Assembly: GCA_020444065.1 (NCBI GenBank)
Contig: JAHLLQ010000002.1
Location: 1-64,000, forward strand
From: a bacterium
GTDB lineage: Bacteria; Sumerlaeota; Sumerlaeia; SLMS01; JAHLLQ01
Direction: 5' to 3'
Length of the DNA stretch: 64,000 nt
Shown here: piece by piece, positions 47,394-55,448 of the stretch
How positions within the stretch are numbered: position 1 is the stretch's first letter
Layout of the letters: each line of letters starts with the position of its first letter
The notes under the pieces: generated by a model
Seen by the model: only the letters and a program-made list of their open reading frames with translations
What the model was told of the DNA's origin: nothing
Database searches by the model: none
Position numbers and translations under genes: made by a program

Positions 47394-50300
47394 TCAGTCG
47401 CCCACGAACATCCAGAAGCACCCCTCGTATGTCTGCGCGCCGATCGTCACGACGCCGCTGATCACATCAAGCGATACTTCCAGGAGCGACGAGTCGTACA
47501 GATGCGACGCCTTCAGCGTCAGCGGTATGTTGGCGTACGGTGCGCTGGCCTTTACGCGCATCGGCATTTCCAGCACGGGCGCACTGCCGATGTAGCCGGT
47601 CGGTTGGATCCACTCGAAGCGCACTGAACCCGAATCGTCCGGGAACGTGTCCGGGCCAATTGCGTAGATCGATCCCGTACCCAGACTCGACGTCGGGACA
47701 GAGACAATCTCCAGAACGGCCGGATCGTATTCGAGCTCGAATCCCAGGTTGCCCATGTCGTCCGCGCCATCGATCAAGAGCGACAGTGTGAACTGCCCGC
47801 CCGGCACGGCCTGCGTGCTGGCGATTGTCACCGTCGTTGGCCCGCCGCCGCGCGCAACCGGCGGCACGTCGCGACGAACCGCAACCTGGACCTCTGTCGG
47901 GTCGATGTTGAAGCCATACATGTAATCCAGCGGCACGGTCCGTGGTTGTTCCGCATCGCCGATCATGAACGTCAAACGCTTGGCATTCGACGAACCGGAA
48001 ACATTGCGACGGTAGATTTCGTAGCCTTCCGAACGGTTCGAGGCGAACACGATCGCGTTGCCATCCCACGTCCAATCCGGCCCGACATCTTCCGCGGCAT
48101 CATCCGTGAACGCGGCAAGACCCGTCCCATCCGCGCCGATCGTGTAGATGTTGCTGTTGCCGTCGCGGTCGGAGACGAATGCGATCGACTGCCCGTCGGG
48201 ACTCCAGGCGGGGGAGTGGTTCGAGCCCGTGCCATCGGTCAGCTTTGTCGGACCTGTACCGTCGGCATTCATCAGCCAGACATCCCGATTTCCGCCGCGA
48301 TCGCTGTCGAACGCTATCCGAGATCCATCCGGTGACCAGCGCGGATGCAAATCCTCCGCGGGGTCGTTCGTCAGTCTTGTCGGATCGCCCGGCGCGGCAG
48401 ATGCCTCGATCCTCCAGAAGTAGTCCGGCCGCGCTTCCCAACCCGTTGATGGATTGTAGAGGTAGTAGCGGTTGTCCGGGCCGGACGTGCCTGTCGATAG
48501 CATTGGTGTCGAATCCTGCACGTACGTCATCGCGACAGCAACCTGGCCACTGACCGCGATGGGCGAGATCGGCACATCGACCCAGCCGAAGCTCGTCGAT
48601 GCAACTGTGCCGCTGGTGAGTACCGCGCCTGGTTCCGTCGCCCCCATTTCAAGGACGCTCCACTCGAAGCCGGCCGAAGATGTCGAAACGTAGAAGTGCA
48701 AATCCGTCAGGATCAGTCCATCCGCATCAAGAACCGTCGCAGCCGAGTATCCCGTCGGGTACGAATCCCAATCGCCGAAGTCGCCCGTGGAGTTGATCAA
48801 GCGAATGTCGGGACTTGCGGGATCGACGTTGGTCTTGTAGAGCTCCGCATTCCCATCGCGTCGCGAGACGAAGACGATGTCGTTCGTCGCGCCGCTCCAG
48901 TCCGCCTGCGTATCTTCGGCGGGATTCCCTGCAATACGCATCAGACCTTCCGTTTGGAACGAATCCATCCAAAGATCGGCAGAACCTTCGCGATCGGAAA
49001 CAAACAGTGTTCCCAGGCCTTGTGGCATGGGCGCCGGCCAGTAGTCGTCCGCCGTGTTCTGAGTGATCTGACGCGGCACTGGATCTGTTGGATCGAGGAA
49101 GTAGGCGTCGCGTTGCGTATCCATTCCAGAGGCGAAGATGACGCCGTACTCGCGCGGCAATTGAACCTCATCGACAGGGCCATACTCTGACGTGTTGCCA
49201 TCGGGATGAAGGGCGACGGCGTGCAGTTGCTTGCCGGCAGGGATCTTCGTCCTCAGATAGAAGTTGTTTCCAAGGAACGGCGTGCGGCCGAGCATCTGAT
49301 AGCCTTCATCATCTCGATCGGCAAATACCTCAACCCAACTCCCATCCGGTGGCGCCGGATTCACCACGCCACCGAGGGCGTGGCTGTCGGGCGAGACGTT
49401 CGTGATCACCGGCATTGGAATCTGATTGTTTCCACCGGCTGACAATCCAATCGCCGCGCCACCATTGTGGAAGATCTTGTTCTGGGTCACGCGATTGCCC
49501 GTTGTGCCCGTTCCAGTGATGTGAACACCGTCGCCGCCATTCGAATTGATGTGGTTGCGTGTGACGATGTTTCCGTGTGCACCGCCTTGGATTAGAATGC
49601 CGTGGGAATCATTGGAGAAGATCCAGTTTCCATAAATCCCCACCCCGGTCACGCCGTTCTGCAGCACGATACCCATATGATTCCCGTAGTAGGTGTTGCT
49701 TCCACTCGTCGAGGCAGCCCCGAACGTATTGCCGATAATCTCCACGTTTGAAGCAGGACCATCGACAACGATCGCATCGCGCCCTGGTGAGACGAAGTAG
49801 TTTCCCCATTCGGCCCGATCCGAGCCGATCTTAATGTTGGAACCACCGGTCACATGAATGCACGAGTCGCCAGTCGAACCGGAATTCGCTCCGAAGTAGG
49901 TGCCGACAACCTGGACATTGTTCGATGATCCCCCGATCTCGATATCTGTCGTTGGATGCGAATTGAAGAAGCACTGATATTCGTCACGCTCGTTGCCGAT
50001 CAACACGTCTGTGGAATCTTTGACCTGCAGTCCGCCCTGCAGTCCTTCGTCGATGCTCAGGTAATCGCCCGGATCGCTGCCAATGTGGACATCGCTGACG
50101 CCATCCAGGGCAATATTCCAGCCCTGATTGCTTTCCAGGTAACCGTTCATGACATCGATACCGGACGAACCGTTGAGGAAATGCAGCCCGTGCTGCCCAT
50201 TGTTGGCCGTCGCAGGGTTGGTCACTAGGACATCCGCGCAATTGTCGATTCGCACGCCATCTTCGAGATTGTCGAGAGCATTCGGATTCTGAAGAGTCAC

Positions 50301-53300
50301 CGGCGAGCAATTCTCCACCAGGATACCGTGGGCGCCGTTATAGCTCGCGCTAATGGTTTCCGGCGCGATTTCGCAGTTTCGCAATTCAATGCCGCTGCCA
50401 AGGTTGTTGAAGCCTTGCAGTTTCACAGCATTGAAACCTGACACGCCATCCACAAGTACACCCGTTCCCGAGTTGTACTGCGCGTAGGCATCCAACGAGA
50501 TGTTACTCGATCCCGCACCGGCCACCCGCACGCCTGTTTCGAAGCCCTCGGCCCACACACTTGCAACATCGACGTTGCTGCAACTCACGAGATCCAAGCC
50601 GACCCCCGTCGCCGCAATGCGTTTTCCTCGCGTGTAGACGACCTCATCGCCGATATCGACATTGTCGAGAGATGCGCTGGAAATCTGGTCGAGTAAGATA
50701 CCACCGTTTGGATTGGCACCCACATCGGTATCGACAATCTGCGTGCCTTGCGCGCCGCCGGAGACCACGATCTCCAGACCGCCATTCGGCTTTGGATTGG
50801 TCCCGTCATTCAGAATAAGTGTTCCAATGTCGCTCTGCTCGATCAGATTGTTGTCCGTGCCGGAGCCCGTAATCGTAATGCCGTTTCCAGTGTTCCCGTG
50901 AATGAAGCCCATCACGACTTCATTGTCGGACGCGCCGCCCTGGATGCGGATGCCATCGCCTTGGTTCGCGCCTTGGACAGCGCCGGACGCTCCGTAGAAG
51001 CCGCCCTCGATACCAAGCGAGTTGTACGATGTCCCCGCACCTTCAACCAGTACGCCATGATTGCCGTTGGCCACGACCTTGTTCGTGCCGCCCATGTAAC
51101 TTCCGACGCGGTTGTTGTTCGCGCCATTTGAAACATGGATGCCGTAGCTGTTGTTGCCGCTCAGGACCCAATTCCCCGAATCGAGGGAGTAGTACATGCC
51201 AACATTCAAGCCAGCCAGATCGTTGTGTTGCGAACCCGAGCCGCGCAACTCCACACCGCTGCCACTGTTACCCGCGAGTCGAAGATTGCGCACCTGATTC
51301 AGTTCGCTGTCGACGATCACAAGGCCATCGCCGCCGTTATCCATGATGTTTTGAACGTAGCCGTCATTCAGTTGATGCATTCCGCCGCCATCGATTCGAA
51401 TGCCGTCGCCTGTGCAGTTCTGAATGGTCATTTGCCCCATTACCTGGGCCTGTTCAGTGTTTTTCAGGCTGATTCCATTGGCTGCATCTTCGATCGTGCT
51501 GACATACCTGATCTTATTGTATCGGCCACCTTCGACTCCGATACCGTCGCCCCCTGCACCGGAGATCGAACCGTGATCAATCAGAGTCTGGTCGCAATTG
51601 CTGAGGTAGATGCCCCTTCCGCCCGCATCCGTGATATCTACAGATTGGATGGTATTCTCGTCGGAGTTGGACATCGCAATGCCATCTCCGCCGGGCGAGT
51701 CGATCGTCAGATTCGAGAATGTGTTCTTCCCGCCGCCTGAACCGCTGATCGCATGGCCGGTCGCATGGATGGCCATGTTGCGGATCTCGACCTGGAATCC
51801 ATCCGTCAATTCGAAGGCTGCATCCCCGGTCGCAGTCACATCCTGGAATCCGACATAGACCCACCTTCCGGAACATGCGATGGGCTGTGTTACTGTGAGT
51901 GTCTTGCCCAGAAAGTCCGTTCCTTCAGGCAGCGTCACGCCGCCGGTGATATTCAGCGTTGAATCTGTCAGGCTAAAATAATCCTGCACACCCAGAGCCA
52001 GTGTCGTCCCGAACGCATACGTGCGAGCTCCGGTGCTCTCCGTGATTGTGTCGGCAAAGTTCGCTCCGTTGAAATGGGCGAAATCCGTCACACCACCCTT
52101 GTTTGAGCAGCGATCGCCCTCCTCGACTTTGTGATCATTATCCACTCCGCTGTCCAGATCTTCGGTTCCGTTCGGGTACCGGTCGCTTGTTCCGCCCCCA
52201 TGATCGGCATGGAAGTGATCGACACGATAGAACTGCTTAATTTCATGTGCAGTCCCGTTGTTCTCTTCCAGAGTCGTTTCGCTCGAACCTCCCTGTTCCC
52301 AGTAGTAATAGAAGTCCGGATCTTCGCCGCCGCGCCGTTCGTAATAATCGACCGTCTCTTCCTTGTTCTTGTCGTCGTATGCTCCACCATCCCAGAAATT
52401 CTGCGAGCCGTTTGCCATTGCAACGGCTTCTGCCAGCGAGATTTCCCCGTCAGGCGTCATGCCACTCGCAGCCGTCGTGACGGTCATTGAGATGCCGGCC
52501 GGCAAAGGAGTCAGATCATCAACCTGAACTCCGGCCTGACGGGTGATGGTGCGCTCGACCACGCCGCGAGGCGTCCACAATTGCAGAGCCAACTGCTGTC
52601 CTTCATCTCCGATGTTTGGCATCGAAGCCAGGTAGATCGTTCCATTCACGCCAAGTTGTCCACCAACGCCAACGTCGTCGATCATCACCTGGATCGGGTC
52701 GTACAGGTTTGTGCCCTGGATACTGATTGTCGCACCGGCCGGGACTTCCGTCGGAGCGACCGAGGAAATCGTCGGGTCGCCATAGACGTTGAACGTCAGG
52801 TGCTGAGTCGACTCCTCGCCGTTCTCCGTTGTGAATCGCACATAGACATCATGTGCTCCGCTCGACGTCAGGTGTGGTACGTTGACGTAAATGGAAGTCG
52901 TCGTCTGATAGGTGATCGTCGCTTCCGTTCCACCGAAGTAGACGCGGTGATTCGGTCCTTCCGATGGGACGTTCATGTTCTGGCCGATCAGCCGAACTTC
53001 CGTTCCCGCGAAATCTGCGTGTGGTTTTCCTGTCGGGTTCGATGATGCCGGATAGCCTTCCGTGACAGACAACTCCATCAATACCGGAATCTCTCGATAC
53101 GTGAATCCCGCAATCCCCTTTGGGCTCATTGCCGCAGGCGTCTCGACCGAGATCGTGTAAGGGTTCGACCACTTCGACAAGCCGCTCGGTACGCGCACCA
53201 CAAGCTGCGTGCCCTGCGCGTTGACCGAAACGACCTCTGCTTCGACATTGCCGAACTTTACCTTGTTCTGCGTGGCGCTGGGATTGAATCTCTGGCCTGT

Positions 53301-55448
53301 AATCGTTACCTCCGTCCCTGGTCCGCCGGATGTCGGATCCATCGATTCGACAATCGGAGAGAACGGATCGCCCACCAATACAAGGCCCGCTTCCAAAGGC
53401 GTCGGTCCCTGAACAATCTCTAGATCCAAGGGACTGACGATGTAGCCCATCAATCCCACAATGCGTTCACCCACGCGTCCAATCGAGGAAATCTTCTCCA
53501 GGATTGTTAGCAAGGGAACCGCCTTGCCGAGAGCCTTCTTGAGTGTTCCCTGCAGTTTGTCCTGTGCCTGGCTGATGCCCTCATTCGCGTAAGCGGCCGC
53601 GATGCCTTTCCCTACCTCCGTGATGATGTTCAGGATCGAATCCAGCGCCTGCTCTTCGGTGAATTCGCCGAGTGCGTTGTTCCCCATCTCTGTGGAAATC
53701 GCCGCGAGGCCGGACTGCATGCCTGCCTTGATGGCTTCCTTACTCGGCGTCCCTTCCTCGCCTGCCACCAGGCCCCAAACGTCGACCAGAGCCAACGTCA
53801 CGTTGATGCCCGTTGCCGTGTTCGCCAGGCGCCGATCGCCATCGACCTGACTGATCGCTGTCGCATCGTTGCCAGAGAACGCCCAGCGGTCCTTGTAAGA
53901 GCCACTGAACGCGCGAATCATGTAGATCGCATCTTCGTCGCTCTGCAGCGGCAGCACCGCATCGCCACCCATGCCTACCCAATCCAGAACGGAATCCATC
54001 ACGAAATCCATTCCCTGGCCAAGCACGTCGATCTTTGCCGTCCACAAATTCCCCGCCACCATTGTCGACTTCTGATAGCCCGTACGGCGAATGTTGCGCG
54101 CCTTGATTCCGCGGAACGACTCGCTGAATCCCGTTGGCATATCCGTCGGATCCAGACGATAGATTGCGACAAGCCAATCGACCGGACTGTAATCCACGCT
54201 GAGGCTCGGAGTAACCTCCAGCGCATCGCCTTCGCGCCGGAACGACAGGTAATCCAGGTCGATTCCCATCGTGCGAACACGGATATCGCCATCGGCACGA
54301 ATGCCGGCGGACTCGCGGATCGTCGTGTCGAAGTCATCAGTCGAGCGCTCGCCGCGCACGGCGCCGATTGTATGTGTTACACCGGACGGCAGTGCGTTCA
54401 TCATCGCGATTACCGCGTTGTTCCACGCCGTGGTGACCTGCGGATCGTCGAGGCCAAGATCGCTGACCGCATAGCGCTCCGCGATCACGGTCGCTAACTG
54501 CGCGACCTCCGGGACGTTCTCCATCGTGTTCAGCAACGTCTCCACGCGCTGAGGATTGCGTGTGATGAAGAACGGATGCATGAAGACCAACGTCTCCGCT
54601 GTAGTCTCCGCGTTGATCAGCACATCGTCTGCACGCCGAGCCGATGAACCGGCCGGCGGACGAAGCGCCAGGTAGGTGCTCTGACTTGCACCTGGAGGAG
54701 CTGCTCCGATCAGACCAACGCGATCGTCTGGAAATTCGATCTGGAAGTTGCCCGACGCATCCGCCTGGACTTCATCGTACACGCACACGATCGTGTGCGC
54801 CGAGGCGTCCACGCCGGCGGGGGGAACGAACTGCCCCGGTGTTGACTGCGTGACGACGAACTCCGCGGGCGTCACGGCTTCGCCGCCGGGCGTCTGTACG
54901 GTGACGACCCCAGAGGCTGCGCCGGCAGGAACCGTCACAACGATCTGAGTATTCGTCATCGAATCGATCGATGCGATGGTCGACCCGAAACGGACCTCGT
55001 TGTCGTTTGGTAACCCGGGCAGGAAATTCGCCCCGGTCAACGTCACCTGCGTTCCGACCGTTCCTGCGCGCGGGGAGAAATCCAGCACGACCGGCCCGGA
55101 TCCGGAGAAGTCCCCGGTGAACTCGCCTTCAGGCACCAATCCCACGGCCTTGTACAGCAGGCGCAGCACATCGTCTTCGTCGATGACGCCGTCGCCCGTC
55201 CATCTTCCGCCGGTTCCCGGGAACGGCGCCACGTCGGCCGCGTCCTGCTGATCGGGAGTCAGTACCTCCACGCCTTCGATGGACTGCGAGACCAGCAGCG
55301 CATCGCGCCCATCGATGTCTCCATCGCCCGACACGTCGCCCTTGGTGGGAGTCATATCCTCCCTACCGGCCAGGCAGACTGTACATAGAATAAGTGACAC
55401 AAATGCAATGAATCGGACCCTGGTCAGGGCCTTGAGGGAACGTTTCAT
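47394..55448 (-). CDS. Giant secreted protein: dockerin-like, IPT/TIG, right-handed beta-helix, TolB-like propeller, cohesin-like
   Basis: 2684 residues with a Sec signal peptide (about 1-27). About 36-105: two dockerin-type calcium segments (GDVSGDGDIDGRDALLV; GDGVIDEDDVLRLLYKAVG). About 117-202, 696-785, 793-880 and 888-975: four IPT/TIG beta sandwiches. About 1169-2000: a long right-handed parallel beta-helix of PbH1-type repeats (NGIT..GSGTDNN-like). About 2126-2220 and 2359-2496: TolB/PD40 propeller blades with WSPDG and DSDRGGNRD repeats, separated by a beta-rich insert. About 2536-2675: a cohesin-like domain (VPGGQFTLSLLIDGADDMGNLGFELEYDPAVLEIV). Probably an adhesin or polysaccharide-binding surface protein. 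Dockerin and cohesin modules in one chain suggest self-assembly. Not certain whether it is cell-attached; no sorting signal seen. Confidence 0.88.
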   Translation of the reverse strand: MKRSLKALTRVRFIAFVSLILCTVCLAGREDMTPTKGDVSGDGDIDGRDALLVSQSIEGVEVLTPDQQDAADVAPFPGTGGRWTGDGVIDEDDVLRLLYKAVGLVPEGEFTGDFSGSGPVVLDFSPRAGTVGTQVTLTGANFLPGLPNDNEVRFGSTIASIDSMTNTQIVVTVPAGAASGVVTVQTPGGEAVTPAEFVVTQSTPGQFVPPAGVDASAHTIVCVYDEVQADASGNFQIEFPDDRVGLIGAAPPGASQSTYLALRPPAGSSARRADDVLINAETTAETLVFMHPFFITRNPQRVETLLNTMENVPEVAQLATVIAERYAVSDLGLDDPQVTTAWNNAVIAMMNALPSGVTHTIGAVRGERSTDDFDTTIRESAGIRADGDIRVRTMGIDLDYLSFRREGDALEVTPSLSVDYSPVDWLVAIYRLDPTDMPTGFSESFRGIKARNIRRTGYQKSTMVAGNLWTAKIDVLGQGMDFVMDSVLDWVGMGGDAVLPLQSDEDAIYMIRAFSGSYKDRWAFSGNDATAISQVDGDRRLANTATGINVTLALVDVWGLVAGEEGTPSKEAIKAGMQSGLAAISTEMGNNALGEFTEEQALDSILNIITEVGKGIAAAYANEGISQAQDKLQGTLKKALGKAVPLLTILEKISSIGRVGERIVGLMGYIVSPLDLEIVQGPTPLEAGLVLVGDPFSPIVESMDPTSGGPGTEVTITGQRFNPSATQNKVKFGNVEAEVVSVNAQGTQLVVRVPSGLSKWSNPYTISVETPAAMSPKGIAGFTYREIPVLMELSVTEGYPASSNPTGKPHADFAGTEVRLIGQNMNVPSEGPNHRVYFGGTEATITYQTTTSIYVNVPHLTSSGAHDVYVRFTTENGEESTQHLTFNVYGDPTISSVAPTEVPAGATISIQGTNLYDPIQVMIDDVGVGGQLGVNGTIYLASMPNIGDEGQQLALQLWTPRGVVERTITRQAGVQVDDLTPLPAGISMTVTTAASGMTPDGEISLAEAVAMANGSQNFWDGGAYDDKNKEETVDYYERRGGEDPDFYYYWEQGGSSETTLEENNGTAHEIKQFYRVDHFHADHGGGTSDRYPNGTEDLDSGVDNDHKVEEGDRCSNKGGVTDFAHFNGANFADTITESTGARTYAFGTTLALGVQDYFSLTDSTLNITGGVTLPEGTDFLGKTLTVTQPIACSGRWVYVGFQDVTATGDAAFELTDGFQVEIRNMAIHATGHAISGSGGGKNTFSNLTIDSPGGDGIAMSNSDENTIQSVDITDAGGRGIYLSNCDQTLIDHGSISGAGGDGIGVEGGRYNKIRYVSTIEDAANGISLKNTEQAQVMGQMTIQNCTGDGIRIDGGGMHQLNDGYVQNIMDNGGDGLVIVDSELNQVRNLRLAGNSGSGVELRGSGSQHNDLAGLNVGMYYSLDSGNWVLSGNNSYGIHVSNGANNNRVGSYMGGTNKVVANGNHGVLVEGAGTSYNSLGIEGGFYGASGAVQGANQGDGIRIQGGASDNEVVMGFIHGNTGNGITITGSGTDNNLIEQSDIGTLILNDGTNPKPNGGLEIVVSGGAQGTQIVDTDVGANPNGGILLDQISSASLDNVDIGDEVVYTRGKRIAATGVGLDLVSCSNVDVASVWAEGFETGVRVAGAGSSNISLDAYAQYNSGTGVLVDGVSGFNAVKLQGFNNLGSGIELRNCEIAPETISASYNGAHGILVENCSPVTLQNPNALDNLEDGVRIDNCADVLVTNPATANNGQHGLHFLNGSSGIDVMNGYLESNQGWNIALDGVSDVHIGSDPGDYLSIDEGLQGGLQVKDSTDVLIGNERDEYQCFFNSHPTTDIEIGGSSNNVQVVGTYFGANSGSTGDSCIHVTGGSNIKIGSDRAEWGNYFVSPGRDAIVVDGPASNVEIIGNTFGAASTSGSNTYYGNHMGIVLQNGVTGVGIYGNWIFSNDSHGILIQGGAHGNIVTRNHINSNGGDGVHITGTGTTGNRVTQNKIFHNGGAAIGLSAGGNNQIPMPVITNVSPDSHALGGVVNPAPPDGSWVEVFADRDDEGYQMLGRTPFLGNNFYLRTKIPAGKQLHAVALHPDGNTSEYGPVDEVQLPREYGVIFASGMDTQRDAYFLDPTDPVPRQITQNTADDYWPAPMPQGLGTLFVSDREGSADLWMDSFQTEGLMRIAGNPAEDTQADWSGATNDIVFVSRRDGNAELYKTNVDPASPDIRLINSTGDFGDWDSYPTGYSAATVLDADGLILTDLHFYVSTSSAGFEWSVLEMGATEPGAVLTSGTVASTSFGWVDVPISPIAVSGQVAVAMTYVQDSTPMLSTGTSGPDNRYYLYNPSTGWEARPDYFWRIEASAAPGDPTRLTNDPAEDLHPRWSPDGSRIAFDSDRGGNRDVWLMNADGTGPTKLTDGTGSNHSPAWSPDGQSIAFVSDRDGNSNIYTIGADGTGLAAFTDDAAEDVGPDWTWDGNAIVFASNRSEGYEIYRRNVSGSSNAKRLTFMIGDAEQPRTVPLDYMYGFNIDPTEVQVAVRRDVPPVARGGGPTTVTIASTQAVPGGQFTLSLLIDGADDMGNLGFELEYDPAVLEIVSVPTSSLGTGSIYAIGPDTFPDDSGSVRFEWIQPTGYIGSAPVLEMPMRVKASAPYANIPLTLKASHLYDSSLLEVSLDVISGVVTIGAQTYEGCFWMFVGD

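Follow-up and report, generated by a model that had tools for sequence, protein, structure and literature searches.

A dockerin and a cohesin at opposite ends of a large modular protein

In the window, by which we mean the whole 64,000-nucleotide stretch of DNA analysed here, positions 55448..47394 of the minus strand form an open reading frame of 2684 amino acids, which starts with ATG, contains no internal stop and is preceded by a purine-rich stretch (GGAGGGG) just upstream of the start codon. Pfam matches in the product, referred to as P0001, follow the order Dockerin_1, TIG, Beta_helix / NosD, PD40 and Cohesin. The features are listed below with the evidence for each.

47394..55448, minus strand: whole gene of the secreted modular protein P0001, 2684 aa (ORF, sequence)
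55368..55448, minus strand: signal peptide, residues 1-27 (sequence; cleavage site estimated by eye)
55134..55343, minus strand: dockerin, residues 36-105, with a 10-residue insertion in loop 2 (Pfam, genome search, AlphaFold2, Foldseek/VIA, ligands)
54849..55058, minus strand: first IPT/TIG-like domain, residues ~131-200 (DUF7498 below cut-off at 131-200; NF047769 at 129-190)
53313..54830, minus strand: ~500-aa domain of unknown function, residues 207-712 (common to five relatives in the phylum)
52449..53357, minus strand: further IPT/TIG domains, residues 698 to ~1000 (best Pfam stretch 698-777; far limit by eye)
49329..52442, minus strand: LREA-like segment and right-handed beta-helix, residues ~1003-2040 (Pfam, best over 1213-1357; outer bounds set by eye; relatives)
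47919..49151, minus strand: TolB-type propeller, residues ~2100-2510 (Pfam, NCBIfam)
47442..47834, minus strand: cohesin, residues 2539-2669 (Pfam, AlphaFold2, Foldseek/VIA)
47397..47441, minus strand: aromatic 15-residue C-terminal tail GAQTYEGCFWMFVGD (sequence)

The first-pass annotation had placed a dockerin at the start and a cohesin at the end of this chain, and the ORF, Pfam, AlphaFold2 and the structure search all agree with it; the observation is more than chance. With the signal peptide ending close before it, the dockerin would form the N-terminus of the exported protein, and only the 15-residue tail separates the cohesin from the C-terminus. The beta-helix and propeller proposed for the middle of the chain were likewise recovered as Beta_helix, NosD and PD40 matches. 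No evidence emerged for the suggestion that these domains bind polysaccharides: the propeller matches the TolB type and no carbohydrate-binding family was matched in P0001. The first of the further IPT/TIG domains (from residue 698) matches the choice-of-anchor Z repeat domain of NCBIfam. By eye, an unassigned insert of about 130 residues (~2218-2345; 48414-48797, minus strand) appears to split the propeller.

Structure prediction of the two end modules

Sequence searches against solved structures gave weak matches for both modules (best E 0.0039 for the dockerin; best E 0.097, to 2xdh, for the cohesin), and structure prediction was therefore used. In the Pfam scan of the whole protein, Dockerin_1 (PF00404) was found at residues 36-73 with 21.9 bits against a gathering cut-off of 22.9, and a genome-wide search placed the same module above the cut-off (28.0 bits, E 1.5e-5). 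The alignment to the profile breaks off at position 38 of 57, at the start of the insertion in loop 2, which probably accounts for the score below the cut-off. Loop 1 reads D-x-S-x-D-x-D-x-D-x-x-D, with D, S, D, D and D at ligand positions 1, 3, 5, 9 and 12. Loop 2 reads D-V, ten inserted residues, then T-x-D-x-V-x-D-x-x-D, so that D, followed after the insert by T, D, D and D, occupies the same positions. The calcium ligands, the lack of which the first-pass annotation had named as a ground for rejecting its reading, are thus present in the sequence of both loops. A similar D-V-A-P insertion was found by a pattern search of the collected loci in a C-terminal dockerin of Desulfocapsa (L158), and loosely in L132; because L158 shares it, the insertion looks like a subtype rather than damage.

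AlphaFold2 modelled the dockerin (residues 31-112; alignment with 28 dockerins from other genomes) with a pLDDT of 87.5 and a pTM of 0.77. The model contains two duplicated calcium-loop/helix segments (helices 17-27 and 61-71) with a short helix (35-41) between them. Every one of the first 33 Foldseek matches was a dockerin entry (best E 0.018, probability 1.00, target-normalised TM up to 0.85); none reached E 0.001, which is unsurprising for so small a fold. VIA gave Z scores of 11.2 (8x39), 10.9 (2ccl) and 9.6, the last with an rmsd of 0.9 (1ohz), and in structure the modelled dockerin resembles type I.

The cohesin matched PF00963 at residues 2539-2669 with 29.9 bits (cut-off 24.1), covering positions 2-139 of the 139 in the profile. 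Its AlphaFold2 model, built from an alignment with 22 other cohesins drawn from 33 stretches, had a pLDDT of 85.6 and a pTM of 0.75, and nine strand elements were listed in it, as in the nine-stranded jelly-roll fold. The best Foldseek match was the non-cellulosomal cohesin 2xdh of Archaeoglobus fulgidus (E 6.6e-11, 22% identity; Z 17.6), which differs from that of P0001 in being archaeal, followed by scaffoldin cohesins. Z scores to solved cohesins reached 17.8 in VIA, with an rmsd of 1.7-1.8 Angstrom across 130-131 residues, and the model was nearer to type I (Z about 15-18) than to type II entries (Z about 12). In sequence, its relatives in the class are weak (best E 1.2e-4). Missing cohesin-face residues were the other ground for rejection named in the first-pass annotation, and we take the dockerin-contact residues of CipA to be N37, D39, Y74, E86 and G89. 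When aligned with CipA cohesin 2, the module keeps N37 and has Gly for Asp39; alignment is unreliable in the remaining columns, those of Y74 and E86 among them. Other aligned cohesins also vary at these positions, so a single residue decides nothing.

Relatives of the protein core

The related-locus search found no relative of the whole of P0001. Across 61 genomes (its own included), matches fell mainly in the TolB propeller and in three cases in the N-terminal core. In none of these genomes was a relative seen that has both ends in common with P0001, the C-termini of four of the five core relatives being lost at contig ends. Six of 40 genomes of the phylum contain the 500-aa domain (207-712), and the window's is one of the six. 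The four truncated relatives (L116, L117, L118 and L204) begin without a dockerin. The full-length one (L205 in genome G008; 1934 aa) consists of a signal peptide, an IPT domain, the 500-aa domain, two IPT domains, the LREA segment and the beta-helix, and ends in QWTLY; neither inspection by eye nor an NCBIfam scan revealed a dockerin, propeller or cohesin in it. As the core exists there without the end modules, we tentatively read the dockerin, propeller and cohesin of P0001 as additions to it. This one complete relative suggests that the dockerin and cohesin may be exchangeable attachment parts swapped onto the core.

Cohesins and dockerins elsewhere in the same genome

The genome (G000; 5.2 Mb in 14 contigs) contains 13 cohesin stretches, eight of them above the Pfam cut-off, and 18 dockerin stretches, both counts including those of P0001. 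The search for further carriers proposed in the first-pass annotation thus yielded, besides those of P0001, 12 cohesin and 17 dockerin stretches, which could form a network. One 645-aa scaffoldin-like protein combines three cohesins, TSP3 and a C-terminal dockerin. The other dockerins mostly belong to large proteins with signal peptides recognised by eye, and 15 of the 17 end at most 21 residues from the C-terminus. Pfam matches in these 17 proteins comprise CBM25/53, FG-GAP, C39 and M8 peptidase domains, a GH85 C-terminal domain (L040, above cut-off) and DUFs. No cellulase or hemicellulase catalytic family was matched by Pfam in any of them, L036 being covered for 3211 of its 4040 residues.

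The P0001 dockerin has no match in its own genome closer than E 0.023. Position 10 of the first repeat is Met in 9 of the 17 other dockerins and Gly in P0001; position 18 is Arg in 13 of the 17 and Gln in P0001. These substitutions indicate that its specificity probably differs from that of the main dockerin group of the genome.

The scanned neighbours of the gene encode MsrA, FtsZ, a glycosyltransferase, a nucleoside phosphorylase, an M20 peptidase, an FHA-GAF protein and several proteins without a Pfam match. No cohesin or dockerin gene adjoins P0001 among them, and they give no hint of a dedicated gene cluster.

Several other arrangements were noticed in this genome. A fairly uniform C-terminal block, in which the dockerin comes after a TSP3 calcium motif, with the conserved end ..YYWSIG......LP recurs, like a genome-wide attachment tag, on large secreted-looking proteins (L036, L038-L040, L043, L024-L026 and others). 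L028 (G000:C1, about 40.6-42.3 kb and 50.6-52.5 kb) encodes a pair of cohesin paralogues, each with PTPTPT linkers and a QGWYFW terminus, and a 93-aa protein at L044 (G000:C2, about 605.8-606.1 kb) consists of a signal peptide and a dockerin and nothing else.

Chains with both modules in the class and in other phyla

At E 1e-4 or better, cohesins were found in 28 and dockerins in 26 of 39 genomes of the class, the window's included. Comparison of the two lists by contig, strand and frame identified at least ten frames, in nine of the 39 genomes, that carry both modules: P0001, the 645-aa protein and one each in G017, G018, G023, G025, G028, G032, G034 and G035. The eight frames from relatives were translated, and some of them run off their contigs. 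The first-pass annotation had held that cohesin and dockerin normally sit on separate proteins. As worded, this generalisation is not supported: the 645-aa protein, the frames in 8 of 38 relative genomes and the published adaptor scaffoldins all unite the two.

Most of the two-module frames of the class are Coh-Doc-Coh cassettes. A scan of other genomes returned 56 loci, 13 of them with both modules in one frame and 10 in the order Coh-Doc-Coh, a count biased towards the cassette, which served as the query. The 13 loci come from Sumerlaeota/BRC1, Auribacterota, Hydrogenedentota, Schekmanbacteria, Desulfobacteraceae, two Clostridia-type genomes and one Methanomethylophilaceae archaeon. The cassette recurs in large proteins of several phyla (L103, L105-L109, L143-L152). 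Other very long proteins (L112 at G001:C20, 2566 aa; L113; L032) carry, by eye, many tandem cohesin-like repeats, followed in some by other repeat domains. Among the papers searched, none mentions Sumerlaeota together with dockerins, and none combines 'choice-of-anchor' with dockerin.

A recurrent C-terminal tail

Many secreted-looking proteins of the class end in a candidate tag of the form (V-x-)[DN]-W-x-L-Y, seen in the genome of P0001 at loci L209-L227. The pattern W-x-[LPVA]-Y-stop matched 19 times in this genome against 13 in a backwards control, and 14 of the 19 matches are in-frame ends of frames of at least 281 aa, where a rough estimate from residue frequencies predicts about 0.5. 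Across the 39 genomes of the class, [DN]-W-x-[LF]-Y-stop gave 86 matches against 12 in the backwards control and was present in 26 genomes. Similar tails end L205, L107, L103 and L105. A link between this tail and cohesin carriers was considered and dropped: the tail ends 5 of 45 distinct closed frames with a cohesin and none of 14 with a dockerin only, too weak a difference, in a count restricted to frames closed at the end and outside loci L143-L198, some of them cut short. The tail could be a short sorting signal without a transmembrane helix; sorting signals of the PEP-CTERM type include such a helix. Among the matches listed by a literature search on sorting signals in Sumerlaeota, none concerned Sumerlaeota. 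The tail may, perhaps, be worth more attention than P0001 itself.

Discussion

One mark of an adaptor scaffoldin, the union of dockerin and cohesin in a single secreted chain, is seen in P0001, its signal peptide being recognised by eye. We propose, with a probability of roughly 0.55, that this Sumerlaeota bacterium secretes P0001 as an adaptor-type link in a cohesin-dockerin network that is not cellulosomal. The protein would be exported and its signal peptide removed, leaving the N-terminal dockerin exposed. With calcium, the dockerin would bind the cohesin of a different protein and thereby hold the body of IPT, beta-helix and propeller domains at the surface or in a matrix, and the C-terminal cohesin would offer one socket to the dockerin of a further protein. 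In favour of this reading are the folds of both modules, the calcium ligands of the dockerin, the other cohesin and dockerin carriers of the genome, the core that occurs without these ends, the choice-of-anchor match and the published example of ScaC. Against it stand the lack of a cohesin or dockerin gene next to P0001, the Gly at CipA Asp39, the weak sequence relatives of the cohesin in the class and the failure to find a relative with both ends in 61 genomes.

The two-module chain is of a kind already known, since adaptor scaffoldins with both modules are in print. The group 1 dockerin of ScaC from R. flavefaciens binds ScaA/ScaB and its cohesin takes group 3/6 dockerins (PMC5934362). P0001 resembles ScaC in carrying a dockerin and a cohesin on one chain; the linking of different partners, described for ScaC, is what we propose for P0001. 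Unlike adaptor scaffoldins, P0001 has the dockerin first and the cohesin last, with a body of ~2400 residues made of IPT, beta-helix and propeller domains in between, and no enzyme-integrating cellulosome is apparent here. The Coh-Doc-Coh cassettes, which also unite both modules in one large chain in the same class of bacteria, differ in holding the dockerin between two cohesins near the C-terminus, whereas the modules of P0001 lie at opposite ends. Also comparable are non-cellulosomal cohesin and dockerin proteins, such as those of ANME archaea and Cloacimonadota, which lie outside cellulose degradation, as we suppose for P0001 (PMC9012536; PMC8542988). In ANME archaea, a dockerin can share its chain with as many as five cohesins (PMC9012536). 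Among these proteins, too, some chains join a dockerin to several cohesins, and accessory domains vary among close relatives; P0001 comes from another phylum and has other accessory domains.

Three other readings were weighed against the adaptor-type link. The dockerin could be a working N-terminal anchor and the C-terminal cohesin fold a structural or sorting domain that no longer binds dockerins. The Gly in place of CipA Asp39, the divergent, orphan character of the module and the long tandem cohesin-like arrays of relatives (L112, L113), in which dockerin binding by every repeat is doubtful, would all fit such a loss; coverage of the whole Pfam profile and the match of the model to solved dockerin-binding cohesins (Z 17.8) argue against it, and we consider it rather unlikely. 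A head-to-tail homopolymer, proposed in the first-pass annotation, would have each copy bound through its dockerin to the cohesin of its neighbour. It would agree with the presence of both modules at opposite ends and with their both being type-I-like in structure. It appears very unlikely, given that no relative found shares both ends and the full-length relative of the core has neither, that 12 cohesin and 17 dockerin stretches elsewhere in the genome offer alternative partners, that the dockerin differs from the main group of the genome and the cohesin has Gly at CipA Asp39, and that ScaC, a published chain with both modules, keeps its two specificities apart (PMC5934362).

The most far-reaching form of this view, likewise very unlikely, takes the two ends as a matched pair, through which the secreted chain would assemble into a calcium-dependent extracellular fibre of beta-helix/propeller subunits. 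If true, a self-pairing chain of this kind would be a ready-made fibre-forming material; we know of no natural cohesin-dockerin chain that polymerises with itself. Pairing of the two ends within one chain, giving a ring or clamp, strikes us as extremely improbable: modules side by side as Coh-Doc-Coh in 10 of the 56 loci and in relatives of the class make within-chain pairing at least possible in principle, but P0001 has no such cassette and its ends are about 2430 residues apart.

P0001 adds Candidatus Sumerlaeota, represented here by metagenome-assembled genomes only, to the bacteria that have a sizeable set of non-cellulosomal cohesins and dockerins. The pairing of these modules, once known, would tell how such bacteria build their outer layer.
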